Both the position numbers and the translations under genes were made by a program. The notes under the pieces are model-generated. The model was not told where the DNA came from, ran no database searches, and saw only the letters and a program-made list of their open reading frames with translations. Of a DNA stretch of 37,151 nt, positions 17,870 to 37,151 are shown in pieces (position 1 is the stretch's first letter; every line of letters starts with the position of its first letter). This DNA is from Flavobacteriales bacterium (GTDB lineage Bacteria > Bacteroidota > Bacteroidia > Flavobacteriales > UBA7430), in the NCBI GenBank assembly GCA_022425195.1, contig JAKMFX010000047.1, positions 1 through 37,151 on the forward strand, read 5' to 3'.

Positions 17870-20800
17870 TTATCGATATAAAACAATGCTTGTTTGATCT
17901 CTGATGACTGTGCCATCGAAGCCTACAAGCTCAAACTCCATAATGTATGTACCCATAGGGCAATATTTACCTGAATTGTTATAGGTGCCATCCCAAACAA
18001 AATCTATATCATTACTCGTAAAGACAAGGCTCCCCCAACGATCGTAAATATTTACTTCAATGGCCTTACCAAAAAGACCTGAATAAGAATAATGGTCATT
18101 GACACCATCTCCATCAGGGGTAAATGCATTCGGGAAATACTTCTTTGGAGACGGAACAAAACAAAAATCGTTCGAGATGCTATAATTATTTGACATGCTC
18201 TGAGCTACGACTCTATAACAGTAACTGGTATCAATTCCATTCTTTACCAAGTCTTGATCTGTGTATTCAAACGTAGAATTTGATAAAGTTTTCAGGTTGA
18301 CATAAGAACTGTCATCACTATTGTAATATTGGAGAGTGTAGTGCCTTACCCCTTCCTCCCAATCTTCATAGGGATTCCAGTGCAGGTAATAGTGTTCTGG
18401 GAATTGCACCCCTTTAAGTAATATATTAGCACCAATTCCACTATTAGGTCCTTCATTTCCACACTCATCAGCGTATGAAGCTCTATACTTATACCTCCTT
18501 CCTTTAGGGTTAGCGGTTACATCTACGAATAATGAATCTCTAGCAGCAGAGTAATCAGAGATCCACCCAAAATATTCATCCCAACGATGAATGTTGTAAT
18601 AGGTCATTTCGTGCGTGTAAAACTCATCCCATTCCGTGGTTAAATATTGATCATTGACAACTGTTGTTCTCACCAAATTCAAGGGTTGTGTAAAATCAAT
18701 GAATAAAGGTTCTTTTGATTTACTTACGTTCGAATTTGATTTATAAACGCCGTTAGGATGATGAGCTAGTACATAGTGAGTATAACTTGTATTACACAAA
18801 TTCGTGTCTGTGTAAAATGATACATCGCCAGCTACTGTATCTACCAGTTTATATTTTAACCCATCATCAGACCTGAAAATATCATAACGTAAAACTTCTT
18901 CCCAACCAACATAAGGAGTCCAACTTAAGTCCATCGTCTGATAGTCTGTGCTCTGAGTTTCCAAAAATATAGTGGAATGAACTAAAGATGTATCGGATGA
19001 AAATCCGCAACTGTCAAATTGTAGAATACTGTACTGGTTTAATTCATATTTGTTGACAGAATCATGGAGGTATAAATTATTCAAATCATCAAGTAACGAT
19101 ATTTCCTCCCATGGTCTAGAAAGAGTACGGTGGTAAATTTCTAAGGATTTAAAATTACTGTCTATTGAAAAACCTGACCAATACAACTCAATCCCAGTAT
19201 CTTCAACGCTGACATAAGCAATTTCAGGTTTTGTTACTATATCGTTTAAAATGACAATATCTACTGATTGAATACTCTCATCGGTACATCCTCGCATATC
19301 GGTTACAAAAAGTTCTATGTCGTAAACTCCAGAAGAATCAAACTCTTGAGTATAAGACGAATTGTCATCTAATAACTTGGAAACTGAATTGAATGTCCAC
19401 AGAGATGAAATTGAATCTGTTTCATATGATGAATTGTTGTTAAAACTCACAACAGGAGCATTAAAACATAAATCAGAAGTTGCATAATCGAAGGAAGCAA
19501 CTGGATTATCAAACACCTTAATCTTTTCAGGAATTAGGGTATCTGAGAAACACCCATTTTCAGATGTGATGCTGTGATAAACATCATACTCACCTGCTGT
19601 ATCATAAAGGTTTGTATTTTGGAAATTTTCATTTACAACAGCATTACCTATATCCCATACGAAGGAAGATAATTCTAAATCAAAAAATGAACTGTTATTT
19701 TCGAAACCAACCTCAAATGGAGGGCATCCAATGGAATCCGTAATAACAATATCAATGATTGGATTTGGATAGATCGTAAGGGTATCTTTAAAACTTGCAG
19801 CGCACTGACCCAACAATGCATTTAGGGCAATAGGGTATTCCATATACAAATCCTGAGTTTTTGAATAGGGAAAAGAAAATTCAATTTCATTGGTTTCATT
19901 CAAAACATAATTAACAGAATCGTACACTTTCGTTGCAAGTACATCCGTGACAGGGTCATATGAAAGAAATTGAAATTTTATATCCGAGGAAAACTCAGAC
20001 TCATCAATAATTTTAACAATCGTTCCGTCACAACCATAATCACTTTCAAAAGTAAACTTTGGATAGGGCCTTTTAACCTCATAGAGACTATTTTTTGTCA
20101 TCTGGTCTGCACATCCATGAACCGAGTTTACCTCAAGTGTCACATCATAAATCCCCATTTCAGTATAGAAAAAATCAACTTCCGAAGTCTCGTTGGAAGA
20201 TATCGGATCTGGTAGATTTCCTCCTTGGTAATCTTTACCCGTTGACGACCAAGAAAATGATGAAACGAAATCGTTATTGAGACTATTCAAATTTACAGGT
20301 TTAAAAGCGCAGATATCCCCTGTGTTGGAAGCTTCGAAATCAGCAAAAAGTCTATAAACCTCAATCGTTGTATCCTTTTGTAGGCTACAACCCAAATCAT
20401 TCGTAACACTCATGCTAAGCGGGTAAAAAACCGTTTGATTAATAGCGGATGAGTCCGTAGCTTTAATGTAAGTCCCTGTGGCTTGTGGGTCTTCAATAAT
20501 AAATTCATCATTAGAAATCCAACTAAAAAAAGTAGCTTCACCAATACCAACAGATAAATCGGCACTGATAGGAAAATCCTCTCCAACACAGACAATTTCT
20601 GGAAGGTTCAAATCTGCTTTAACACCGAATTGTATTTTTTTAGATGTTTGATAAACACATGGGGCTTCATCACCATTATCGACAATCAATTCACATGTAA
20701 GCTCATAAACTTTGGGCTCGTCAACTACAAACCGAATATTTCCTTGATCTTCAATGAGAGGGATGTTGGGCTCAATCGACCAGTTGAAATCTGTAACATT

Positions 20801-23800
20801 TAGTGGGGTATTTAGTACAGATTGATAATTGATCTGGTAATGCTTATCAATGGTTGACTTGTTATCAAAACAAACTACACCATCGACATCTTGAATCGTC
20901 ATCTCTAAATCATCAACAACAACTACAGAATCGCGATAGATCAGATCTGTACAACCTATATTATTGGTTGTCTTCAAGGAGACACCATAGGCCGTCAAAG
21001 GTTCAAGAGAAAATTGTGGATTGGTGTTAGTAGAACTATTATCTGGAATAACGGCATCATTATCATGAACAAAAAGTTGCCAATCCCAAGACTCAATATT
21101 GTCATTATTTAAGCTCGTAAGTTTAAAATCCTGGCCACTGCAAAGAAGCAAAGAGTCTGATCCGACAAAGTCAGCTATCACTTGTTTAACTTCTACATCA
21201 ACAGTATCAATAATCCAGCATCCCTCAGCATTTGTGAGTTTTAGGCTCATATTTGAACCTTCTAAAGAAGTGGGCATTGTATTAAATAATGGTGATTGCT
21301 TGGAAGAATCGTCAACGATTAACCCTGGACCTAGAGTCCACATGTAGTCGTAAGAATCTGAAAAATCATCTTTACTTACGGAAACTTCAAAAGCTTCTCC
21401 TAAACATACCGCTATAGGACTCTCAATCTCTGCTTCGATACCTACACGAAATGTTTTAGAATCTTCGAAAAGGCAAATGTCAAACAATCCATCTATGCTT
21501 ACCCTATAATTTAGAGTGTACAATCCAGAAAGCTCAAATTCATAAGAGGAGTTTGACACCAAAGCTTCTGACAAGGCTTCACCAGAAACTAAATTACTGT
21601 TTGAGCCAAGTAGTTTTTTCGTTCCATCCGGGAGTGTCAACTCCCATGATTCATCTAGTGGAATATAATCATAACCATCAAACTCCGGAATCGTCCTAGC
21701 TATAAAATTTTGGCTGACTCGTTCTTCGCCATTAAAACATATGTTTTCTGGAATGGGATCAATGGATATGATGTAATTGTTTAACAAAATCATCTCTTCG
21801 TAGAGCTTGAAGTCGGAACATCCCTCAAATGAAGTGACTTTTAAGCCAACATCAGAAAAACCCATTTCTGTAAACGGACGGGTTATCAATGAATCTCCAT
21901 CAGTATTGACTGGGCTAAGATTGGGTTCCTGAAAAGTCCATTCCCAAGTATTGATACGGTTGTTATTCAAGCTCTCAAATGCCACCTCCTCTCCATTACA
22001 ATAAAGAATTGTATCAGAAGCAGTAAAATCTGCTGATACATCGTATATCTCTACTGTTTTTGTGAGATTTGCAGTACATCCGTTTGGATTGCTTAACATC
22101 AAATTGATTTGAGAATCCCCAGCATAGAATTCATCTATACTAACCTTTGGGTTTGCAGAAAAAGGATCACTTAGGGACAAGCCCTCACCAACACTCCATT
22201 GGTAGTTGTTGGCTTCATCTACAGGAGTATTTTGACGAATAGAAACCTCGAAATCTTCACCATCACAAACCGCTTCAGGGGAAATAATTTCAGTATTCAA
22301 GCCAATAAAGAAATTCTGCGAATCTTGATACCTGCAGAAGTCATTACCCGACGTATAAGTAAATATGTATCTGATGGTATATTCTCCAGTAACCGTAAAG
22401 TCGTAAGATGAAGTCGATTTTATGAATGGCGTATAGGTTTGTGCGATTGTGAGGGGAGTTTCGACACTGCCATCAGGCAATACCAACTCCCAAGTATCTC
22501 CGAGTGCATTAAAACTGTATTTATCTAAATCTATGACTGTATTGGCTATAAATTCTTGACTTACACTTTGAGCTCCATCAAAACAAATATTGTCAGGCAC
22601 AGGCTCTAAATTGGTGGTAAAAGTATTCGTTAAAACGGCATTTTCAATGCTCTTCGTGTTTTCACAGCCTTCTTCTGAGATGAGCTTTAAACTCACTGTA
22701 GATTGACCAGCATCTGTAAATCTATGGGTGAAGTTTGGGTCAGATTTTATTTGATTTGTTGTTGAATTTGTCTCTTCGATGGTCCAAATCCAACTGGCAA
22801 TTCTATCGTTATTTAAACTGGAAATTTCTACATTTTGATCTGTACAATATAGAATGGATTTGGATACATTAAAATCGGCGACCACATCGTATACCTCTAT
22901 ACTTTTGGACACCTCCGTCCAGCAACCATTAGAATTTGTTAATCTCAAAGAAATCTGCTGTGTGCTTTGCTCGGGTTGGATCCCGGCAGACACTTTAGGC
23001 AAAGCAGATGATGCATTGTCTATCGTTAATCCTGAACTTGCCGTCCAATCGTATTGATATACGTTTGAAGGATTGTCGGTGTTAAGTAAGATGTCAAATT
23101 CATTACCCACACAAATAATCGATGGTTCCGTAATTTCAGCATTTAAGCCCACATCAAAAGTCTTGGAATCTTGGTATGAACAGATTTCATTTTCCCCATC
23201 AAAAGTGATGAAATACGTAATGGTGTAGGTACCAGGAATGGTAAAGTCATACGAAGTCTTTGATTCTATGAACTCTAAAGGATTGATAGATTCAAAGGGA
23301 GTACTTGAAACAAGTTGTTCCTTACTGCCGTCTGGTAAAGTCAACTCCCATGACTCAGAACCAGCCACATATGCATAAGCTGTCGAGGCAGGGACAGTCA
23401 TTGCCGTAAATTCATAAATTACGGATGGGTTACCATTAAAACAAATGTTATTGGGAGGTGTGTTGATTGTGGTTGTATATTCATTAAAGACAATCATATC
23501 GTCCACAGAATCTGAGGACTCGCAGCCATCTTGTGATTTTACATTCAATGAAACATCGTAGGCTCCAAATTCATCCAATTGAATCAAACTGGAAAAGGAA
23601 TCGTTTGATGCTTGCTCAATATTGTTTTGTTTGAATGACCAATTGTAGTCTAAGTCATTCACCTTATTCATTGGGGTTAAATCAGCAGTATTAATTTGCT
23701 TTAGTCCGCAATACTTTATCGTAGATGAATTAATCTCCGCAACAGGACCTCCTATGGAGAAATAATCAGCAAATATTTTACTTCCTGAACAACCGGTTGA

Positions 23801-25108
23801 GCTATTTTCGATAAGTAGTGTAAGATCGTAGCTCTGCGCATCGGAAGACGCTAGCAAAAGTGAAGCGGCAGGGTTTGTACTTGTGAGGGTTTCAGAAGCA
23901 TCCCAAGCTCCATTTTCTGGGATTATGCTCCACAAGTAATTGTAATCATTTCTTTGGTTGGCAAGTTCCGTCATATCAGATAATTCTGTCGGAAGAGAAA
24001 AATCGCATGTGAACCGATTGATGTTCTCCGTCAAGACAGGATCTATGTAATCAAGACGCACATTTAAAGGACTTGAATAGGAGGAACTACAAATACCCGT
24101 GTAATCAAGCTGAACCGTATAATCTCCTTCTGTAGCTGGTATAAAAGTAATGGCATTGGAACTGGATGAAACCACCTCCCCTGCTGGGATTCCCGACCAA
24201 CTAAAATTAGAGGCATCCGACTTGTGAGCACTGCTGTTCGTCAAGGTAATACTTTCGTCGGAGCATAAAACACCATCATAATTCGTATCGAAACTAACGT
24301 TATGTGCAATGTCATGGCTATAATCCAATTGAGTATTGATAACACATTCACTGTTGTCAAAAGATATAGACAAGGGTATGGAAAAGTTTTCGCTGAGAAT
24401 ATCGCCGTTAACACTTGTTTGAATAGGGAATTCTACAGGGTCTAAATAGCTGTTTGAATAGCTGGATTCATGAGAAAATCGAAGGGTATAATCAAGACCT
24501 GAAGCCACACAACCTTCTTGGGCGTCAATTCGCTCTGTGGTAATATCTTCAAGAACGGGTCCATCATTAATTGTAAAGGCAAAAGTTTTTTTATCAAAAC
24601 ATTCGTTTTGATCTGTAACGCGGAGTAAAACATCTTTTTGAACGGGCTCAGTAAAGGATAAATTTAGTGATGTTGTGTTGTAAAGATTGTTTTCAAATTC
24701 CCAAGTGCTTGAAATAAAGTCATTGGCATTAAGGATTTGAAAATCTAGTTCTAGAATCCCATCACAGAGATAATAATCAGATTTGATGTTCGTGGTTATA
24801 TCAGTTTTTGGATAAACGGTAAAATTGTACACCTCTGAACATGCCTCTGAAATACTGGTGATTTGGTAATCTCCAGCGTTTTCAAAGGTTGCGTAATATT
24901 CCTTACCGGCCGATCCTTCTACGACTCCTTCCACAACCCCTTCTTTTGGTGATATATCCCAAACAGCTTCACTAGGAGCGGTCAAACCTATACTTGCAGT
25001 GACTTCACTTGATAAACACAAATTTGTAGTAGAAGATACTTCCAACCCACATTGCGCGTAAGCTGAAAATGGTAATAAGAAAAAAAATGTAACAAATAAG
25101 TACTTCAT
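17870..25108 (-). CDS. Giant T9SS-secreted repeat protein with type B (CHU_C) sorting domain
   Basis: 2412 aa. Signal peptide at residues 1-18 ('MKYLFVTFFFLLPFSAYA'). Residues to about 550 are Ig/PKD-like. Residues about 550-1720 are four super-repeats of about 285 residues (starting near 556, 839, 1121 and 1411). Each begins 'NICFNG...', then 'WELTLPDG', then 'AEI..P..VC.GE.F', then 'ADF..S...C...SLNND.I.SW.W'; the fourth is the most diverged. More PKD-like units follow ('SFVWDIGNA', 'SSLWTFNS'), then about four fibronectin-III-like domains (about 1960-2310). The last 90 residues are a type B sorting domain: 'KYFPNAFTPDGDGVNDHY', 'YDRWGSLVF', 'WDGTYNNSGKYCPMGTY'. It is expected to be exported by T9SS and held at or shed from the cell surface; adhesion is inferred. 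Third gene of its operon. Confidence 0.93.
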   Translation of the reverse strand: MKYLFVTFFFLLPFSAYAQCGLEVSSTTNLCLSSEVTASIGLTAPSEAVWDISPKEGVVEGVVEGSAGKEYYATFENAGDYQITSISEACSEVYNFTVYPKTDITTNIKSDYYLCDGILELDFQILNANDFISSTWEFENNLYNTTSLNLSFTEPVQKDVLLRVTDQNECFDKKTFAFTINDGPVLEDITTERIDAQEGCVASGLDYTLRFSHESSYSNSYLDPVEFPIQTSVNGDILSENFSIPLSISFDNSECVINTQLDYSHDIAHNVSFDTNYDGVLCSDESITLTNSSAHKSDASNFSWSGIPAGEVVSSSSNAITFIPATEGDYTVQLDYTGICSSSYSSPLNVRLDYIDPVLTENINRFTCDFSLPTELSDMTELANQRNDYNYLWSIIPENGAWDASETLTSTNPAASLLLASSDAQSYDLTLLIENSSTGCSGSKIFADYFSIGGPVAEINSSTIKYCGLKQINTADLTPMNKVNDLDYNWSFKQNNIEQASNDSFSSLIQLDEFGAYDVSLNVKSQDGCESSDSVDDMIVFNEYTTTINTPPNNICFNGNPSVIYEFTAMTVPASTAYAYVAGSESWELTLPDGSKEQLVSSTPFESINPLEFIESKTSYDFTIPGTYTITYFITFDGENEICSYQDSKTFDVGLNAEITEPSIICVGNEFDILLNTDNPSNVYQYDWTASSGLTIDNASSALPKVSAGIQPEQSTQQISLRLTNSNGCWTEVSKSIEVYDVVADFNVSKSILYCTDQNVEISSLNNDRIASWIWTIEETNSTTNQIKSDPNFTHRFTDAGQSTVSLKLISEEGCENTKSIENAVLTNTFTTNLEPVPDNICFDGAQSVSQEFIANTVIDLDKYSFNALGDTWELVLPDGSVETPLTIAQTYTPFIKSTSSYDFTVTGEYTIRYIFTYTSGNDFCRYQDSQNFFIGLNTEIISPEAVCDGEDFEVSIRQNTPVDEANNYQWSVGEGLSLSDPFSANPKVSIDEFYAGDSQINLMLSNPNGCTANLTKTVEIYDVSADFTASDTILYCNGEEVAFESLNNNRINTWEWTFQEPNLSPVNTDGDSLITRPFTEMGFSDVGLKVTSFEGCSDFKLYEEMILLNNYIISIDPIPENICFNGEERVSQNFIARTIPEFDGYDYIPLDESWELTLPDGTKKLLGSNSNLVSGEALSEALVSNSSYEFELSGLYTLNYRVSIDGLFDICLFEDSKTFRVGIEAEIESPIAVCLGEAFEVSVSKDDFSDSYDYMWTLGPGLIVDDSSKQSPLFNTMPTSLEGSNMSLKLTNAEGCWIIDTVDVEVKQVIADFVGSDSLLLCSGQDFKLTSLNNDNIESWDWQLFVHDNDAVIPDNSSTNTNPQFSLEPLTAYGVSLKTTNNIGCTDLIYRDSVVVVDDLEMTIQDVDGVVCFDNKSTIDKHYQINYQSVLNTPLNVTDFNWSIEPNIPLIEDQGNIRFVVDEPKVYELTCELIVDNGDEAPCVYQTSKKIQFGVKADLNLPEIVCVGEDFPISADLSVGIGEATFFSWISNDEFIIEDPQATGTYIKATDSSAINQTVFYPLSMSVTNDLGCSLQKDTTIEVYRLFADFEASNTGDICAFKPVNLNSLNNDFVSSFSWSSTGKDYQGGNLPDPISSNETSEVDFFYTEMGIYDVTLEVNSVHGCADQMTKNSLYEVKRPYPKFTFESDYGCDGTIVKIIDESEFSSDIKFQFLSYDPVTDVLATKVYDSVNYVLNETNEIEFSFPYSKTQDLYMEYPIALNALLGQCAASFKDTLTIYPNPIIDIVITDSIGCPPFEVGFENNSSFFDLELSSFVWDIGNAVVNENFQNTNLYDTAGEYDVYHSITSENGCFSDTLIPEKIKVFDNPVASFDYATSDLCFNAPVVSFNNNSSYETDSISSLWTFNSVSKLLDDNSSYTQEFDSSGVYDIELFVTDMRGCTDESIQSVDIVILNDIVTKPEIAYVSVEDTGIELYWSGFSIDSNFKSLEIYHRTLSRPWEEISLLDDLNNLYLHDSVNKYELNQYSILQFDSCGFSSDTSLVHSTIFLETQSTDYQTMDLSWTPYVGWEEVLRYDIFRSDDGLKYKLVDTVAGDVSFYTDTNLCNTSYTHYVLAHHPNGVYKSNSNVSKSKEPLFIDFTQPLNLVRTTVVNDQYLTTEWDEFYTHEMTYYNIHRWDEYFGWISDYSAARDSLFVDVTANPKGRRYKYRASYADECGNEGPNSGIGANILLKGVQFPEHYYLHWNPYEDWEEGVRHYTLQYYNSDDSSYVNLKTLSNSTFEYTDQDLVKNGIDTSYCYRVVAQSMSNNYSISNDFCFVPSPKKYFPNAFTPDGDGVNDHYSYSGLFGKAIEVNIYDRWGSLVFTSNDIDFVWDGTYNNSGKYCPMGTYIMEFELVGFDGTVIRDQTSIVLYR

Positions 25109-28325: not shown

Positions 28326-31253
28326 TTACTTTTTAATTAGTTTACCGTATGAAAGGTTGCCATCAACATCCATAATCATAAGCGTGTATATACCATTGGA
28401 CAGGTGCGAGATATTAATTTCTTCACGATAAGAGTCTATATGCACCATTAACTGCCCAGTTAAGCTGTATATATCAATTTCCTGGTAATTTACATCAGAG
28501 ATGCTAAAGTAAGAGTCAGTAGGATTCGGATATATGTATATACCCTTAGCTTCAGTTTCAGTAACGTTTAAACAGAATCCACTTTCATCGTCTTTGAGTT
28601 CATACTTAATTGTTCCTGAATCATAGTGTAAGTATCCAATACATATTTCACATTTACTTGGAATTAGACACGATTGATCATCGTCAGTAGCGTCCATCTT
28701 GAAATTACATGCTGATTCGACGGTACATCCGAGGATAACACAAGTCCCATCATCGATTCCAGCATCAGAATTGTAGTTTTCTGCTTTGGCATTCATACAG
28801 CCTTCAATCAAACAGCTACCATCATCTGAATTGGCCATCTCGTCAAAATTCACGGCTGACTGATCGGTACAACCGTAAAAGATGCATGAGCCATCATCTG
28901 TGTTTGCTTCAGAATTATGATTATCTGCTGAAGAATCTGTACAACCCAAAATGATAAGAGTGACACATAGACTCTCATCATAATTCAGGGCTGGGCTGTA
29001 ATATTCAACAAACAAAGAGTCAGGGCAAGCATTAAGTTTATTCGCTTCACAATCGAACCCATCCTCTGCAAACGTACAGTTTCCGACATCTGTAGCGCTT
29101 TCATTGTAGTTGCAAGCCGTTTCATTTTGACAGCCAACGATTTCGTCTACATCACAAACGCCATCATCATCTGCATCGTTATCTACAATGACACCTATTC
29201 CATCTTGTTCACCAGAACAGGTCTCACATCCCATTGGATATTCGCATATTGTATCGTCTGTATCAGTTGTGGGTCTTTGATCGAAATTACATGCTGTGTC
29301 ATCTGTACAACCGCTAATTTCATTGGCATCACAAACACCATCACCATCACTATCATCAGTAACAGATGAGCTCTGTCCTACACATGTCTCACACAAAGAA
29401 ATATCTGGAATATCACACAAAGTATTGTCTGCATTCACTGTTGGTGAGGCATCATAGTTACATGATAAAGGATCCGTACAACCTGATAAGGTATCTGCTT
29501 CGTTACATAAGCCATCATCATCTGCATCATTGTCTACAATGACACCTATTCCATCTTGTTCACCAGAACAGGTCTCACATCCCATTGGATATTCGCATAT
29601 TGTATCGTCTGTATCAGTTGTGGGTCTTTGATCGAAATTACATGCTACTTCATCTTTACAACCGCTAATTTCATTGGCATCACAAATACCATCACCATCA
29701 CTATCATCAGTAACAAATGAACTCTGTCCTACACATGTCTCACACAAAGAAATCTCTGGAATATCACACAAAGTATTGTCTGCATTGACTGTTGTTGAGG
29801 CATCGTAGTTACATGATAAAGAATCCGTACAACCTGATAAGGTATCTGCTTCGTTACATAAGCCATCATCATCAGAATCGTTATCGACAATCGTTCCGGT
29901 TCCATCTTGCTCACCTGAACAGCTTGCACAAGCATCAAGATCTGTAGAATAAGTACAAAGCGTATTATCCGTATTCACTGTTGATGAGTTGTCGTAGTTA
30001 CATGCTGAGTCATCTGTACAACCGCTAATTTCATTGGCATCACAAACACCATCAACATCAGAATCGTTATCGACAATCGTTCCGCTACCATCTTGCTCAC
30101 CTGAACAGCTAGCACATGTATTTAAATCGGTTGAGTAGATACACACATCTGGATCGGTTGCAGCATTACTAAAGTTACATGCCGACGAATCTTGACAACC
30201 AAGTATCTCATCTTCATCACAAACACCATCATCATCAGAATCGTTATCGACAATCGTTCCGGTTCCATCTTGCTCACCTGAACAGCTAGCACATGTATTT
30301 GAATCGGTTGAGTAGATACACACTCCTAGATCGGTTGCAGCATTATTAAAGTTACATGCCGACGAATCTTGACATCCAAGTATCTCATCTTCATCACAAA
30401 TACCATCATCATCCAAATCATTCAAACAAACACCTGAACAATCTTTAACAGGACCTCCGAAAATACAAGAACCGTCGTTGGCATTGGATGCTGAATCGTA
30501 ATTACAAGCATTAACATCATTACAACCCGGAACGGTTTGATTTTCACAAAGAGGAGCCGAACCACAAAAAACATCTCCTACGGTATAGTCGAAATATTTG
30601 GTGACAGCCATGCCCCCTGCAAAAGCAAATTTACACGCATAAGTAATCGTAGAACCTATAGCTTGATTGGTAAATGTCCTAGTGAATAGTTTATCGCTAG
30701 TTTTAGTCATAGAAGTCTCAGAAAAATTTGGATCAGGAGTCCACAAGTAAGCAATAACCCCGTTTACATCATCCAAAAGCTCACATGTGATGGTAACATC
30801 AGACCCATCCGTAGAGAAATTCATCGTATAACCCACTGAAAAAGATTCCTGTTCTGCTTCAGTATAAACTTCATCACAGGGAGTGGAGGCCTGATTGTCT
30901 GGGATCGATTCCACCACCGTTCCGGTCCCGTCTTGTTCACCCGAACAGGTTTGACAATCCCCAGCATAAAAACAATAATCAACAGATTCTGTTGCACTTT
31001 CATTGTAATTACATGCAGTGATATCCATACAACCCGGGAATACACATGTACCATCATCTTCGGTCGCAGATGAATCGTAATTATTGGCCTTACTATCAGT
31101 ACAACCCAGATTACTTAATGAGGAAAAATATTCATGGTCTGTATTAGCTAATGAATTGTAATTTATCACATTTGAATTCGCTGATGCTTGAGCGCCTATC
31201 GAAACACATACATAACAAAACAGAATAAAAACTAAGCTAAATCGCTTTTTCAT
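28326..31253 (-). CDS. Cys/Asp-rich repeat surface protein with type A T9SS sorting domain
   Basis: 975 aa. Signal peptide about residues 1-23. Most of the protein is a run of 'GC.D..ACNYD..AT..DGSC' units (from residue 50), alternating with acidic loops such as 'DNDSDDDGVCDEDEI' that resemble thrombospondin type 3 calcium loops, and with 'C.SCSGEQDGTG' spacers. Residues about 138-230 are a distinct beta-sandwich-like module ('SDVTITCELLDDVNGVIAYLW', 'GGMAVTKYFDYTVGD'). The last ~75 residues (901-975) are a type A T9SS tail: 'IYIYPNPTDSYFSI', 'SLTGQLM', 'LSNGIYTLMI', 'GKLIKK'. The repeats differ between copies by recent tandem duplication. Role inferred: calcium- and disulphide-stiffened stalk or adhesin on the cell surface. 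Confidence 0.93.
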   Translation of the reverse strand: MKKRFSLVFILFCYVCVSIGAQASANSNVINYNSLANTDHEYFSSLSNLGCTDSKANNYDSSATEDDGTCVFPGCMDITACNYNESATESVDYCFYAGDCQTCSGEQDGTGTVVESIPDNQASTPCDEVYTEAEQESFSVGYTMNFSTDGSDVTITCELLDDVNGVIAYLWTPDPNFSETSMTKTSDKLFTRTFTNQAIGSTITYACKFAFAGGMAVTKYFDYTVGDVFCGSAPLCENQTVPGCNDVNACNYDSASNANDGSCIFGGPVKDCSGVCLNDLDDDGICDEDEILGCQDSSACNFNNAATDLGVCIYSTDSNTCASCSGEQDGTGTIVDNDSDDDGVCDEDEILGCQDSSACNFSNAATDPDVCIYSTDLNTCASCSGEQDGSGTIVDNDSDVDGVCDANEISGCTDDSACNYDNSSTVNTDNTLCTYSTDLDACASCSGEQDGTGTIVDNDSDDDGLCNEADTLSGCTDSLSCNYDASTTVNADNTLCDIPEISLCETCVGQSSFVTDDSDGDGICDANEISGCKDEVACNFDQRPTTDTDDTICEYPMGCETCSGEQDGIGVIVDNDADDDGLCNEADTLSGCTDPLSCNYDASPTVNADNTLCDIPDISLCETCVGQSSSVTDDSDGDGVCDANEISGCTDDTACNFDQRPTTDTDDTICEYPMGCETCSGEQDGIGVIVDNDADDDGVCDVDEIVGCQNETACNYNESATDVGNCTFAEDGFDCEANKLNACPDSLFVEYYSPALNYDESLCVTLIILGCTDSSADNHNSEANTDDGSCIFYGCTDQSAVNFDEMANSDDGSCLIEGCMNAKAENYNSDAGIDDGTCVILGCTVESACNFKMDATDDDQSCLIPSKCEICIGYLHYDSGTIKYELKDDESGFCLNVTETEAKGIYIYPNPTDSYFSISDVNYQEIDIYSLTGQLMVHIDSYREEINISHLSNGIYTLMIMDVDGNLSYGKLIKK
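29160..29861 (-). repeat. Two tandem 351-bp repeats inside the 975-aa gene
   Basis: Copies at 29160-29510 and 29511-29861 differ at about 14 positions by eye (about 96% identity); a stretch of over 100 bases is identical. The unit is exactly 117 codons, so the duplication keeps the frame. It spans two GC-D units plus two acidic loops. Confidence 0.92.
29875..30414 (-). repeat. Three diverging tandem repeats of 186, 177 and 177 bp
   Basis: Units start at 29875, 30061 and 30238, each opening on the plus strand with GAATCGTTATCGACAATCGT. All lengths are multiples of three (62, 59 and 59 codons). Each encodes 'C.SCSGEQDG.GTIVDNDSD' plus one GC-D unit. Confidence 0.9.
30564..30842 (-). repeat. 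Single beta-sandwich-like module in the 975-aa protein
   Basis: Encodes residues 138-230, the only non-repeat folded segment of that protein. The strand pattern 'DVTITCELL', 'IAYLW', 'FTRTFTN', 'STITYACKFA', 'AVTKYFDYTVG' is seen. I think similar modules occur in other secreted flavobacterial proteins, from memory only. A carbohydrate-binding role is speculation. Confidence 0.5.
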
Positions 31254-31688: not shown

Positions 31689-34640
31689 TTAATAAATACA
31701 AAAATCATGATGATATTCAACAGTGATGTTCACATTGGCATCAGGATTGAAATTAGAGGCTGCAGGATTGGTACATCCAGTAACAATTTTAGTAGTACAT
31801 GAGTTGTCATCAACTTCATGACCTGCTCTGTTGTCATATAGTAAGTCATCATAAGATGGGAAAGAAACATAATACTCAGCATACCCAGAGTCTGTACAAC
31901 CTAAAAGGCCTGAACATGTACCTGCATCAGTTGCAGAAGCATCATAGTTATCGTATACTTCGTCTTGACATCCTTCAACCTCAAGCTCATCACATACACC
32001 ATCAGCATCTACATCACTAATACATTGACCTGCACAATTGTAGTACATATCTGGGTAATCACATGAACCATCAGAATCTGTAGCCAAAACGTTATAGTTA
32101 CAAGCAGACGCATCTTGACAACCTGCAACCTCAAACTCATCACAAACAGTATCACCATCAACATCATTCAAACAAACCCCATCACAGTCATAACCTGTAG
32201 TAGCGAACGTACACGAACCATCATCAAAATAGGTAACATCTGCATACATGGTCATAGTGTTACAAGCGGAAGAGTCAGTGCATCCATCCTCAACTCCAAA
32301 TAGATTTGCATCAGTAATGTTAGCCATACCATTGGTAACATATCCAGTAAACTGAGGGAGCTCAATTAAGTTACCATTGTTTAAATTTGTGTGGACTAGA
32401 TCAATCAAAATTACATCTTCATCGTAGAGGATTGCAAATTGTGGAACAGCACCAGAGGCAAGACCATCTGTTTCAGGAGTAGAAGAGTCATCACCCCAAA
32501 TGGAAAGACCAAAAAATCCTGTTAAAATAGCTTCAGAACCTACACATTTTAGCACACCATCACCATTTAAATCATAAAAAGCACCGATAGTTCCGCCATA
32601 GAATTGATCGAATTTAGTGGCATATATACCAACGGTCATGTTTGCACCTGTATTGATAGGTGTCGTGAACATATTACTGCTTACGAATTCTATACATGAA
32701 CCGTCATCAGTGTTGGCCATATAATCAAAGTTTATCCTTGTAGAATCAATACAGCCGTAAATATAAGACTCACAGGAGTCGTCATCAGTATTGGCCGTAT
32801 CATCATAATTGTACATTGTAGAATCTATACATCCATATCTGAAAGGAATGCAAAGTCCTGCATCAATATTTGCAATGGGATTGTAATTGAACATTGTTGT
32901 ATCGAGACAACCAAAGTTAAAATCATGCAGAAAGGTAAATGCCGGGTAGGCTCGTGATACTTTTAGCTGGTAGCCTTGTCCGGGTATTAAATTACCTATA
33001 CCGTTAAAACTGTATTCCGGCATATAAAAATTGGCGTTGTTGTTTTTGATGATTATCAAGTCATCCAGCATCGTACTCATTGCTTCTTCGGCGTCAGTTT
33101 CAAGATGATGTGTATAGCCCAGGATGTTCCATCCTTCTTCAATGTCAACAAAAATGGCTAAAGATTGAACGGCTTGATACGCTGACTTCCAAGTGACTGA
33201 ACACTTAGATTGATCATTGCATCCGAAGTTAGCATCGTATTCTATATAGTTCTCATCCATACAACCGTAAAAACCAATACAGGTATTGTTTTCAAGGGTT
33301 GCTAATGGGTCGTAGTTACAATAATCAAGCTGCATACATCCCAATCTGAAACATGAACCATCATCATCTGTGGCTATGTCATCAAAATTGTCGGCCCACT
33401 TAGACATACATCCATACTTCACGCAAGAAGAAGAATTATCAATAGTGGCCAATTCATCATAGTTGTCGGCCCATTCAGACATACATGCATATCTATAACA
33501 TTCATTACCATCAACAAGTGTTATACTTGCTGCAGAAGTCTGAACAACTAAACTATTTAGAATGTAAGAAACTGGAGTAGGCATTTCTAAATCATACAAT
33601 TGATCACCCTTAACCAACTGAAATGAAATTGGCACATCATCCAATGCTCCGTCAACTTCAGGCGTAGCATAATCATCACCCCAAACTGCAATAGAAGTTT
33701 GACTGACCCCTGCAACCACCTCACTACCCACAACCAAACCATTGGGGTCGAGTGCTACTATATAGTCACCCATATGAGTAACATTCAATGATTCAATAAA
33801 AGACTGAGTAAAAAAAACCACCATATTCGCTCCTGTATTGACTGAGAATGGCTCCGGAATATCGTAAGTTGAATGGGTTGCATAAGGATGATAGTTGTCT
33901 GCCCATTCAGACTTACAACCATATTTATAGCAATAACCATTATCATCCGTTGCCTGAGCATCGAAATTATCAGCCCAATCAGCCATACATCCCCGCCTGT
34001 AGCAAGAACCATCATCATTGGTAGCCAATGCATCGTAGTTGATTGCCCACTCAGAAGTACATCCGTTTCTTATGCAAGAACCGTCATCACCAGAAGCAAG
34101 GGTAAAACTCGCTGCAGATGAGATAGACATAATTCCATTCGTTATATAAGAAACTGTAGTAGGCATTTGAATATCATACAAGGTTTCGCCATCCACCAAC
34201 TGAAAGGAAATCAACTCATTTTCTATTGCCCCATCAACTTCATCAGTAAAAATATCATCTCCCCAAACTGCAATAGAAGTTTGAATTACCCCTGCAACTA
34301 CCGCACTACCCGCAACCATACCGTTGGATGATTTCGCTACAACATAAGCGCTACTCGTTGATATCTGTAATGAAGAAATGAATGACTGTGTTAACAACAG
34401 AATCATGTTTGAGCCTGTATATTCGGTAAATGGCTCTGAGCTTGAAAAAGTTGCGTGTGCATCGTAGTTGTCTGCCCAATAAGCCATACATCCGCCTCTG
34501 TAGCAAGACCCATCATCTTCAGTAGCCGATTCGTTGTAATTATCTGCCCACGCTGATGTACATCCAGAAATGACATACTGAGCTTGTGCAATGCAAAGGC
34601 AGTGAACAAAAAATAGTAAGACAAAAAGTATGTTTTTCAT
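31689..34640 (-). CDS. Cys/Asp-rich multi-module secreted protein (no clear sorting domain)
   Basis: 983 aa. Signal peptide residues 1-20. GC-D repeats start at once, many of a 'GC.S.WADNYD..AT.DDGSCYR' type. Three ~120-residue WGDD modules are inserted at about 64-187, 256-379 and 654-783. One GWN module ('EEGWNILGYTHH...NGIGNLIPGQGYQLK') lies at about 482-577. Thrombospondin-3-like segments ('DCDGVCLNDVDGDTVCDEFE') lie at 818-890. The protein ends inside a GC-D unit ('HHDFCIY') with no type A or B T9SS tail, unlike its neighbours, so it may be 3'-truncated, or released or anchored differently. It is flanked by a terminator of its own. Role inferred: surface or matrix protein. Confidence 0.9.
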   Translation of the reverse strand: MKNILFVLLFFVHCLCIAQAQYVISGCTSAWADNYNESATEDDGSCYRGGCMAYWADNYDAHATFSSSEPFTEYTGSNMILLLTQSFISSLQISTSSAYVVAKSSNGMVAGSAVVAGVIQTSIAVWGDDIFTDEVDGAIENELISFQLVDGETLYDIQMPTTVSYITNGIMSISSAASFTLASGDDGSCIRNGCTSEWAINYDALATNDDGSCYRRGCMADWADNFDAQATDDNGYCYKYGCKSEWADNYHPYATHSTYDIPEPFSVNTGANMVVFFTQSFIESLNVTHMGDYIVALDPNGLVVGSEVVAGVSQTSIAVWGDDYATPEVDGALDDVPISFQLVKGDQLYDLEMPTPVSYILNSLVVQTSAASITLVDGNECYRYACMSEWADNYDELATIDNSSSCVKYGCMSKWADNFDDIATDDDGSCFRLGCMQLDYCNYDPLATLENNTCIGFYGCMDENYIEYDANFGCNDQSKCSVTWKSAYQAVQSLAIFVDIEEGWNILGYTHHLETDAEEAMSTMLDDLIIIKNNNANFYMPEYSFNGIGNLIPGQGYQLKVSRAYPAFTFLHDFNFGCLDTTMFNYNPIANIDAGLCIPFRYGCIDSTMYNYDDTANTDDDSCESYIYGCIDSTRINFDYMANTDDGSCIEFVSSNMFTTPINTGANMTVGIYATKFDQFYGGTIGAFYDLNGDGVLKCVGSEAILTGFFGLSIWGDDSSTPETDGLASGAVPQFAILYDEDVILIDLVHTNLNNGNLIELPQFTGYVTNGMANITDANLFGVEDGCTDSSACNTMTMYADVTYFDDGSCTFATTGYDCDGVCLNDVDGDTVCDEFEVAGCQDASACNYNVLATDSDGSCDYPDMYYNCAGQCISDVDADGVCDELEVEGCQDEVYDNYDASATDAGTCSGLLGCTDSGYAEYYVSFPSYDDLLYDNRAGHEVDDNSCTTKIVTGCTNPAASNFNPDANVNITVEYHHDFCIY
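32292..32681 (-). repeat. WGDD module 3
   Basis: Residues 654-783 of the 983-aa protein: 'FTTPINTGANMTVGIYA', 'GLSIWGDDSSTPETDG', 'QFAILYDEDVILIDL', 'GYVTNGMANIT'. This is the copy most like the remnant at 34668-34799. Confidence 0.8.
32910..33197 (-). repeat. GWN module 1
   Basis: Residues 482-577 of the 983-aa protein: 'EEGWNILGYTHH', 'IIIKNNNANFYMPEYSFNG', 'IGNLIPGQGYQLKVS'. It is paralogous to the module at 35115-35354. Confidence 0.8.
33504..33875 (-). repeat. WGDD module 2
   Basis: Residues 256-379: 'VNTGANMVVFFTQSFIESL', 'QTSIAVWGDDYATPEVDGA', 'ISFQLVKGDQLYDLEMPTPV'. It is close to module 1 at the DNA level as well. Confidence 0.85.
34080..34451 (-). repeat. WGDD module 1
   Basis: Residues 64-187: 'YTGSNMILLLTQSFISSL', 'QTSIAVWGDDIFTDEVDGA', 'ISFQLVDGETLYDIQMPTTV'. 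Confidence 0.85.
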
Positions 34641-34667
34641 AATTATTTGATGACTAGAATTGGTTTG

Positions 34668-34799
34668 TTAAATAATGATTCCAAAAAACATATTTGCACC
34701 TGTATTCACTGGAGTAGTGAATCAGTCAAACGTAATCTGAGCGTTCGCAGAAAAAATGGTGAACATGAGAATGGTTAAAACTAAAATAAAGTACCTCAT
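34668..34799 (-). pseudogene. Remnant of a WGDD-family secreted protein
   Basis: Minus strand from the ATG at 34799: a 20-residue signal peptide ('MRYFILVLTILMFTIFSANA'), then 'QITFD' and an in-frame TGA (34724-34722). Reading on in the same frame gives 'FTTPVNTGANMFFGIII', then TAA (34670-34668). The second part matches the opening of WGDD module 3 ('FTTPINTGANMTVGI') in the next gene. So this is the head of a lost paralogue, broken by a stop and a deletion. The 25-codon signal-peptide ORF might still be translated. Confidence 0.8.
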
Positions 34800-34830
34800 A
34801 ACGAATTACGATTTAGAATTGTAAAAAAAT

Positions 34831-34858
34831 GAAAAGCAGTCCTGAGACCGCTTTTCAC
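34831..34858 (-). terminator. Rho-independent terminator of the right-edge repeat-protein gene
   Basis: Minus-strand hairpin with arms TGAAAAGC/GCTTTTCA and an inner GTC/GAC pair around a CTGA loop, followed by seven T (34830-34824). It lies 62 bp past the stop codon at 34920. Confidence 0.8.
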
Positions 34859-34865
34859 CCACCCC

Positions 34866-34898
34866 CACGTATGCCTGTAGGAAATGATGACATACGTG
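34866..34898. repeat. Inverted repeat CACGTATG / CATACGTG
   Basis: Perfect 8-base arms (34866-34873, 34891-34898) with a 17-base loop, in the 3' UTR between the stop codon at 34920 and the terminator. It could be a second hairpin protecting the mRNA end; function unknown. Confidence 0.5.
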
Positions 34899-34919
34899 CG
34901 TATTGATTGTCAATTTTAT

Positions 34920-37151
34920 CTATTTCGATAGTCTCTTTTCTACAGATCCGTCATTGTATAAATAAAGCAATGGCGTATCTGTTTCCTGATTGTCTATAGA
35001 TACCTCCTGTCCTAGCATGTTCACCACACGAACTAAAGTTCGCTTATCATTTGGATGAACAGGGGCTATTTCATGCGCCCATTGTGGTGCCTTTTCTTGC
35101 ATCTCAATACGCATACCACCCAGGTCAACAAAGGAAAAATCGTCCACCTCACCTCGCATATATACTTGATAACCCTGTCCTGGTACTAAATCTCCAATAC
35201 CATTCCAACCAAACTCAGGCCAATACATGGTTCCGTTGTTGTCTTTAGCCAGGGTAATAAGATGAGAGATGGCATCAAAACATGCCGCTGTATTTTGCGG
35301 GTAGTTCAGATTGTATCCGATGATGTTCCAGCCTTTGTATAAATCCAAAGGAATCGGATTCAGTCGACGTGTCATTTCTGAGTTCTCCAACAGTAATTCT
35401 TCGTGTGCAATTTCAGTCGCTTCCAAATCCGATATTCGTTCCACGGAGTAAACACAAGAGCTGTCTTTTTCGGTGGCCAAAGGATGGTATTCCACATACA
35501 AGCTGTCGGTACATCCGTAAACGATCAGATTTTCACAAGCACCATTATCTACGCTTACTTCTTCGGTGTATTCATAAAACACATCATAGGTACAGCCTTC
35601 GAAAATACAGGAACCATCGTCGGTTGTTGCAGCGGGCACATAGTTAATGGCTAAGGCATCTGTACAAGCTTCCATATAAACCACTTTCCCATTTGCACAT
35701 AGACTTTTTACCGAAGCGGCATCTTTATACACCAACATACCATTACTTTGGTAGGTGTTGGCCTGGTATGGGCTAAGATCATAAAGGTTCCTTCCATTGA
35801 CCAAGTACAAATCATAAGATTCCCCTTCTGTAGCACCATCAAGTTCTTGGGTACCCGTATCATCACCCCATAACGTCAAAGAAATGATGGACGTCCCAAA
35901 TACAGCTACCGAACCAAATGAAGTATTCTCTTGATTGGCAGCAACGATGTAAGCACCTTCTTGAAGATTCGGTAGCGAACCCATAAAGTTTTCTGTAAAC
36001 AAGATGTTCATGTTGTTTCCAGTAATGGTACCCGGGTAAACGCTAGGGAAAACACAATTGCTGGACTCGTCATACAAACAGGTGCCATCTTCGGTATTCA
36101 CATCTACACTGGCATCTCCTGTGGGCTGAATGTAATTCGTAGCTAAAGGATCTGTACAGCCGTATATTGGCAATTGAGTGTAATACCCTTGCATGCAAAG
36201 CGTGGTTAACTCCGTAAAGTCGTGTAAAATAAGTGTTTTGTTTTCTGAATAATTCAGGGGGTCATTTAAAGTAATGCGATGTAAATCATTACCGTCTACC
36301 AAGAACAGGCGAATGCCCTCCCAACTCACTGCTCCGTCAATAGGATCCGTTTGCACATCATCTCCCCATAAGGTAATCGATTCTACAGCTCCTTGTTGAA
36401 TGGATGTTGAACCCACAATTCGGTCAGAATCAGTCATACCCACCAGGTACGCATTGTTTGAATTGATATTGATTTGTGAAGTAAAATCAGCGGTAAACAA
36501 AATGTTCATATTGGAGCCGGTGATCAGTCCTGAATAGCGTTCTGGGATGTCACAACCGAAATTGGCTACGTTGTATACACAGATCGATTCGTCATTTTTG
36601 GTGGCACTGGCATCATAATTCAATGCATCTTGACTCATACACCCTAGGTAATAACAAGAACCGTCTGAAGTGTTCGCATTTGGATTGTAATTGTCTGCCT
36701 CTACTTCCATACATCCGAAGTAAACACAAGCACCGGGATCAGTCGCCAGTGGGTTGTAATTGTTAGCATTGACTTGTTGACAACCTACCACTTCTAATTC
36801 ATTACAAACACCGTCAGAATCTGTATCGTTCAAACATTGATCATTACAGTCGTAATAGATCTCTGGAAATTCACAAGATCCATCGTCGACATTTGCAGTT
36901 GTATTGTAATTACAAGCTGTATTGATCGTACAGCCCGAGTACAAACAAGAACCATCTTGATCAGTGGCTAACGAGTCATAGTTATCAGCTGTAGAATCAG
37001 TACAGCCATTTCGAATACAGGAGTTGTCATCATCAGTGGCTAAAGGATCAAAATTATCTGCCCAACTGGAAACACAACCCAAACGTGAACATGAACCGTC
37101 ATCAAGGGTTGCCTGAGCATCGTAATTGTCTGCCCAATCGGATGTACAACC
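34920..37151 (-). CDS. Cys/Asp-rich multi-module T9SS-type protein (partial, 5' end outside window)
   Basis: 743 visible residues, open through the right edge; the apparent TTG start at 37082 is internal, since GC-D repeats continue upstream of it. Order: 'GC.S.WADN(Y/F)D' units; a thrombospondin-3-like stretch ('DCNDQCLNDTDSDGVCNELE'); WGDD modules 4 and 5; further GC-D units; a short charged helix ('LEATEIAHEELLLENSEM'); GWN module 2; and a C-terminal tail 'LVRVVNMLGQEVSIDN...PLLYLYNDGSVEKRLSK'. That tail resembles the short type A-like T9SS ends of flavobacterial surface proteins. It ends with its own terminator. It is a paralogue of the 983-aa protein downstream and probably a surface protein; the role is inferred. 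Confidence 0.9.
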   Translation of the reverse strand, partial: GCTSDWADNYDAQATLDDGSCSRLGCVSSWADNFDPLATDDDNSCIRNGCTDSTADNYDSLATDQDGSCLYSGCTINTACNYNTTANVDDGSCEFPEIYYDCNDQCLNDTDSDGVCNELEVVGCQQVNANNYNPLATDPGACVYFGCMEVEADNYNPNANTSDGSCYYLGCMSQDALNYDASATKNDESICVYNVANFGCDIPERYSGLITGSNMNILFTADFTSQININSNNAYLVGMTDSDRIVGSTSIQQGAVESITLWGDDVQTDPIDGAVSWEGIRLFLVDGNDLHRITLNDPLNYSENKTLILHDFTELTTLCMQGYYTQLPIYGCTDPLATNYIQPTGDASVDVNTEDGTCLYDESSNCVFPSVYPGTITGNNMNILFTENFMGSLPNLQEGAYIVAANQENTSFGSVAVFGTSIISLTLWGDDTGTQELDGATEGESYDLYLVNGRNLYDLSPYQANTYQSNGMLVYKDAASVKSLCANGKVVYMEACTDALAINYVPAATTDDGSCIFEGCTYDVFYEYTEEVSVDNGACENLIVYGCTDSLYVEYHPLATEKDSSCVYSVERISDLEATEIAHEELLLENSEMTRRLNPIPLDLYKGWNIIGYNLNYPQNTAACFDAISHLITLAKDNNGTMYWPEFGWNGIGDLVPGQGYQVYMRGEVDDFSFVDLGGMRIEMQEKAPQWAHEIAPVHPNDKRTLVRVVNMLGQEVSIDNQETDTPLLYLYNDGSVEKRLSK
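35115..35354 (-). repeat. GWN module 2
   Basis: Encodes 'LYKGWNIIGYNLNYPQNTA', 'LAKDNNGTMYWPEFGWNG', 'IGDLVPGQGYQVYM', ending 'DDFSFVDLGG'. It lies just before the sorting tail. Confidence 0.8.
35694..36056 (-). repeat. WGDD module 5
   Basis: 'ITGNNMNILFTENFMGSL', 'ISLTLWGDDTGTQELDGA', 'LYLVNGRNLYDLSPYQ', 'YQSNGMLVYKDAASV'. Confidence 0.85.
36192..36554 (-). repeat. WGDD module 4
   Basis: 'ITGSNMNILFTADFTSQI', 'ESITLWGDDVQTDPIDGA', 'LFLVDGNDLHRITLNDPLNY'. Adjacent to module 5 with one GC-D unit between. Confidence 0.85.

Follow-up and report, generated by a model that had tools for sequence, protein, structure and literature searches.

Two neighbouring genes at one end of the window (the whole 37,151-nt stretch of DNA analysed, which is the entire contig C6 of a 1.77 Mb Flavobacteriales genome in 48 contigs) carry five copies of a ~120-residue module whose family is real, uncatalogued and widespread, constituting a new building block and not a new kind of system. 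The module is probably a non-catalytic, all-beta extracellular domain representing an uncatalogued Bacteroidota beta-sandwich family, borne by proteins that most likely serve as stalks or adhesins at the cell surface and equipped with a loop that most likely binds Ca2+. As a type, an extracellular beta-sandwich module is ordinary; what is new is the family.

Module copies, Cys beads and gene history

The five copies, located in the preliminary description, all translate in frame from the minus strand as the module described there. They are distributed over two open reading frames, the second of which has its 5' end cut by the contig end:

31689..34640 (-): ORF P0001, 983 aa, with a signal-peptide-like start, 24-residue Cys beads, three modules, one GWN-GYQ module and no recognisable sorting tail
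31695..32669 (-): paralog-like segment carrying module copy 3; its 981-nt alignment with a contig C39 paralog (L053:1289-2269) shows 81% identity
32292..32681 (-): module copy 3, in P0001, of the divergent IGAFYDLNGDG..CVGS subtype
32934..33149 (-): GWN-GYQ module of P0001
33267..33488 (-): Cys beads in series, following module copy 2
33504..33875 (-): module copy 2, in P0001, interrupting a Cys bead; the copy modelled with AlphaFold2
33921..34064 (-): pair of intact 24-residue Cys beads separating module copies 1 and 2
34080..34451 (-): module copy 1, in P0001, interrupting a Cys bead
34689..34760 (-): broken module start containing the end of a signal peptide, FTTPVNTGANM and an in-frame stop
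34920..37151 (-): ORF P0002, 743 aa, with Cys beads, two modules, a GWN-GYQ module and a conserved C-terminal tail
34926..35057 (-): C-terminal tail NMLGQEV...LLYLYNDGSVEKR, at the end of P0002, with five copies in the genome
35136..35348 (-): GWN-GYQ module of P0002
35694..36056 (-): module copy 5, in P0002, with its own flanking Cys pair
36192..36554 (-): module copy 4, in P0002, flanked by a Cys pair of its own
36558..37151 (-): Cys beads in series, preceding module copy 4

A profile HMM built from the five copies recovered each of them, its own training set, with E-values of 1e-40 to 1e-54, and yielded no other significant match within the window. The broken copy reported between the two genes, which scored below threshold with this profile (E 0.02-0.5), is present: its translation, '..NAQITFD*FTTPVNTGANMFFGII', comprises a signal-peptide end and a module start with a stop inside, and at the DNA level the broken copy shares 85% identity with the beginning of a paralogous gene located on a different contig.

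Tree inference placed copies 1 and 2 as mutually nearest sisters, copies 4 and 5 each next to their counterpart from a different genome of the family, and copy 3 closest to the contig C39 paralog. The bases at 34689-34760 match those lying just upstream of the paralog-like segment in that same C39 paralog, and the broken start and the segment both contain AATACAGGTGCAAA, the codons of NTGAN. On this sequence comparison, the broken copy is the severed 5' end of a recombined C39-type paralog segment, the one holding copy 3. Because both pieces match one C39 paralog and share the NTGAN codons, P0001 looks like a fusion, a chimera in which ~2 kb (with a start of its own, beads, two modules and a GWN-GYQ module) would now part the front of an older gene from its body. 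The C39 paralog continues roughly 600 residues past the P0001 stop, so that P0001 is possibly a decaying gene; given its rearranged structure and lack of a recognisable sorting tail, it may be dead or may fail to arrive at the surface. Decay of module genes is seen elsewhere as well: a copy in a relative (G008:C3:271325-271681) contains six internal stops. A stretch of contig C39 at about 67700-82900 (L053) harbors a cluster of large module-bearing genes, with one 1689-aa ORF consisting mostly of a long Cys-bead run.

Most Cys beads in P0001 are 24 residues long and follow the pattern GC..(W)ADNY...AT.DDGSC... The module had been described as sitting between such cysteine-linked units, like beads on a stiff string. 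The placement is accurate for most relatives, in which the module has its own flanking Cys pair (CDLP...NC) and lies between beads, but not for copies 1 and 2 (two of the five window copies), which are devoid of the first Cys and interrupt a 24-residue bead, with GC..WADNY...AT preceding the module and DDGSC following it. The split-bead junctions in P0001 read GCMAYWADNYDAHAT-module-DDGSC and GCKSEWADNYHPYAT-module-ECYRY. In a structural model of a construct comprising two beads, a half bead, the module, the second half bead and two further beads, the module reached pLDDT values of about 82-95 and the intact beads of about 80-92; the leading half-bead fell below 50 and the overall pTM was 0.53. 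The beads therefore look ordered in this prediction, but neither a rigid rod nor the stiff string is supported. A neighbouring 975-aa protein in the window (28326-31253), from which the module is absent, consists largely of Cys beads and ends in a T9SS type A sorting tail.

Predicted fold, conserved core and search for a named family

The AlphaFold2 model of copy 2, generated with 38 relatives, was obtained with a mean pLDDT of 94.4 and a pTM of 0.87, and contains nine strands (eight of at least three residues) and one short helix. The model predicts with confidence an all-beta domain without a close solved relative, which we read as a beta-sandwich because of its strand order and the kind of weak Foldseek matches it returns. 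This predicted two-sheet all-beta architecture, which is that of Ig-like beta-sandwiches, agrees with the fold initially proposed for the module, and the high pLDDT leaves no indication of disorder. Foldseek searches with the copy 2 model returned no match at E <= 0.001 in the PDB, and hence no significant match to a solved member of a known Ig-like superfamily, nor any at that threshold among viral models; the construct of beads and nested module likewise had no significant match in the PDB. The ligand-binding regions of the staphylococcal surface adhesins UafA (3irp) and SdrD (4jdz) provided the best TM-scores among the PDB matches listed (0.41 and 0.39, respectively), but with TM below 0.5, E above 0.1 and about 10-12% identity they are not evidence of kinship. 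Ig-like and fn3-type sandwich modules (Pfam Big_9, fn3, PKD, Cadherin_4) resemble the module in being ~100-120 residues long, predicted all-beta and repeated in exported proteins, some of them co-resident with it. The module differs from them in its specific motif (NTGxNM / GDEIGVF / CVGA / WGDD..T...DG) and in the absence of any profile match or significant structural match.

In the five-copy alignment, 18 columns are invariant (T12, G13, N15, M16, F24, Y36, G48, S49, W63, G64, D65, D66, T69, D73, G74, L91, Y102 and N105), including TG.NM and WGDD..T...DG. Over 120 close and 25 distant copies, and numbering by copy 2 (whose own residue 78 is Val), the positions mostly kept are W62, G63, D64 (D/N), D65 (D/N), T68, D72 (D/E), G73, E78 (E/D) and N104 (N/D): positions 64, 65, 72 and 78 are mostly Asp, Asn or Glu, T68 and G73 are nearly fixed, and position 104 is mostly Asn or Asp. 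The motif of the distant copies can be written as TGNNATI...GDEIGVF...G.CVGA.VW.G...ITVWGDD..T...DGF..GE. In the model, the conserved residues map to the loop that joins strands 57-63 and 79-86 and to the position just before strand 106-109. Since the WGDD..T...DG loop keeps its acidic residues in close as well as distant copies, a putative Ca2+ site is the simplest reading of this conservation.

Sequence searches corroborated the view that the module lacks a recognised name. No Pfam, NCBIfam or PHROGs model reached its curated cut-off (Pfam and NCBIfam were scanned with the whole proteins and 22 diverse copies, PHROGs with the whole proteins), and no PDB sequence meaningfully matched the module or the whole window proteins. 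Only scattered single-member hits were obtained, the best being Peptidase_C25_C in Pfam (0.0077, in 1 of 22 copies) and an unrelated reductase subunit in NCBIfam (0.00098, in 1 of 22). Neither these searches nor the fold search, the latter proposed earlier as a check, yielded a strong match to a named, characterised domain. None of the papers listed for the motifs WGDD and DDGSC was related, and none of the T9SS papers retrieved by topic describes the module in its title or abstract.

Distribution across Bacteroidota and the GWN-GYQ partner

The preliminary description reported the module from these two genes, which proved too narrow, as profile searches trace the family across Bacteroidota. 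The five-copy profile detected 24-26 copies in the source genome, on contigs C6, C10, C16, C37, C39, C40 and C47, and identified the module in each of the 11 further genomes sampled from the source family. Among 196 sampled genomes of the order, matches at E <= 1e-10 occur in the source family, in one other small-genome family and in one genome elsewhere. A broader form of the module, captured by a 22-row profile (A3, E <= 1e-5), is present in at least 31 of 395 sampled Bacteroidota genomes (~8%), a lower bound because candidates were scored in part in some genomes; this profile also matches one metagenome-assembled genome labelled Caldithrix (L093). Scanning genome contigs with a further alignment (A2) returned 27 loci, and a single window copy used as query against genome contigs returned none. 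The named loci belong to metagenome-assembled and single-cell genomes of marine Flavobacteriales and 'Cryomorphaceae', and the window copies form a divergent branch of the wider module family. No relative of the module turned up among viral contigs (queried with a single copy and with alignments), phage records or plasmid records, and these collections thus leave a phage or plasmid origin unsupported.

Both window genes also carry a ~73-residue stretch, GWN..GY...Y.PE(F/Y)..NGIG(N/D)..PGQGYQ, which has no Pfam name. This GWN-GYQ module is present in 19 copies in the source genome and in 32 of the 395 sampled Bacteroidota genomes. The two modules co-occur in 22 genomes (22 of the 31 module-bearing ones) against 2.5 expected (hypergeometric 1.6e-21, ignoring the relatedness of the genomes). 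Their adjacency is stronger evidence than this genome-level co-occurrence: for 29 of 74 module copies outside the source genome, in 14 genomes, a GWN-GYQ module lies within 300 nt on the same strand. We tentatively consider, while doubting it, that the two together might constitute a conserved two-domain unit for recognition, so far undescribed, in T9SS surface proteins throughout Bacteroidota. A Ca2+-dependent ligand site of a new kind would then sit on the beta-sandwich at its WGDD..DG end, and one streamlined marine family would have amplified the unit to more than 20 copies per genome.

Export setting, proposed role and rival explanations

P0001 and P0002 are predicted to be exported, signal peptides of module proteins having been judged by eye only. 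The source genome encodes SprA, the T9SS channel, and contains 33 sorting-tail hits; T9SS sorting tails are present in the related proteins L096, L101, L103, L113 and L116 and in two paralogs from the source genome, L054 and L056. P0002 ends in the NMLGQEV...LLYLYNDGSVEKR tail, which is matched by no sorting-tail model and is absent from P0001; it looks like the latter half of a sorting tail and may be an uncatalogued sorting signal. The same tail is also found on contigs C39 and C16. Elsewhere in the window, a 2412-aa protein (17870-25108) combines PKD domains with a CHU_C (T9SS) tail. Outside the source family the module lies in predicted type IX-secreted proteins, and the domains found beside it in these distant relatives are cohesin, dockerin, fn3, Cadherin_4/Big_9, SBBP, BNR and CarboxypepD_reg, and a Pfam scan of ten module-bearing proteins detected no enzyme catalytic domain, glycoside hydrolases included.

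We infer a role in display or adhesion for the module proteins. The Cys beads and other linker domains would hold the sandwich modules away from the cell, and the variable loops of the sandwich could then contact a partner, be it a polysaccharide, another cell or another surface protein. The WGDD..T...DG..GE loop, together with the late Asn/Asp, would most likely bind Ca2+ and so stabilise one end of the sandwich outside the cell.

The partner could be a glycan bound by the conserved core itself, in which case the module would be a carbohydrate-binding module, its sandwich holding a marine polysaccharide through the WGDD/DGA residues and anchoring the cell to algal or detrital glycans. The weak Foldseek matches, among them the beta-sandwich parts of CGTase, beta-glucuronidase and rhamnogalacturonan lyase, point in this direction, as do the cohesin and dockerin of one relative (L096, with two module copies), although these are separate domains in that protein and the module matches neither. 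This explanation appears unlikely, as neither PDB fold search produced an E-value below 0.01 or more than a low TM-score, no Pfam CBM family profile matches the module, and none of the ten Pfam-scanned proteins contains a glycoside hydrolase. A purely structural spacer without ligand, multiplied by recombination to lengthen the protein, would account for the widely varying copy number, for the movement of copies by recombination and for the fact that beads and modules make up most of these proteins. Positions D64, D65, T68, D72, G73 and N104 of the loop are, however, conserved above the level of the domain, which makes a mere spacer quite improbable, even if Ca2+ stabilisation alone would also explain that conservation.

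The module is strongly associated with sorting-tail proteins, and PMC11285876 describes known sorting domains as Ig-like beta-sandwiches. Both domains being all-beta, the module might be conceived as a variant T9SS type A sorting domain (PF18962 / TIGR04183) or as a platform for processing such a domain. That domain is C-terminal and about 75 residues long, whereas module copies are internal or N-terminal and match no sorting-tail model, and a separate tail matching PF18962/TIGR04183 follows in the same proteins (L054, L056, L096 and L103). Position and lack of profile match rule out the module as a sorting domain proper, and make a variant or platform extremely improbable. A surface stalk or adhesin module with a putative Ca2+-binding loop remains our preferred explanation.

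Models of the module and of the GWN-GYQ module accompanying it would allow many large secreted proteins now labelled 'hypothetical' to be annotated. The domain, absent from both Pfam and NCBIfam, is expanded to more than 20 copies in a small marine genome of about 1.8 Mb, and identification of its ligand would reveal how these cells hold particles or each other.
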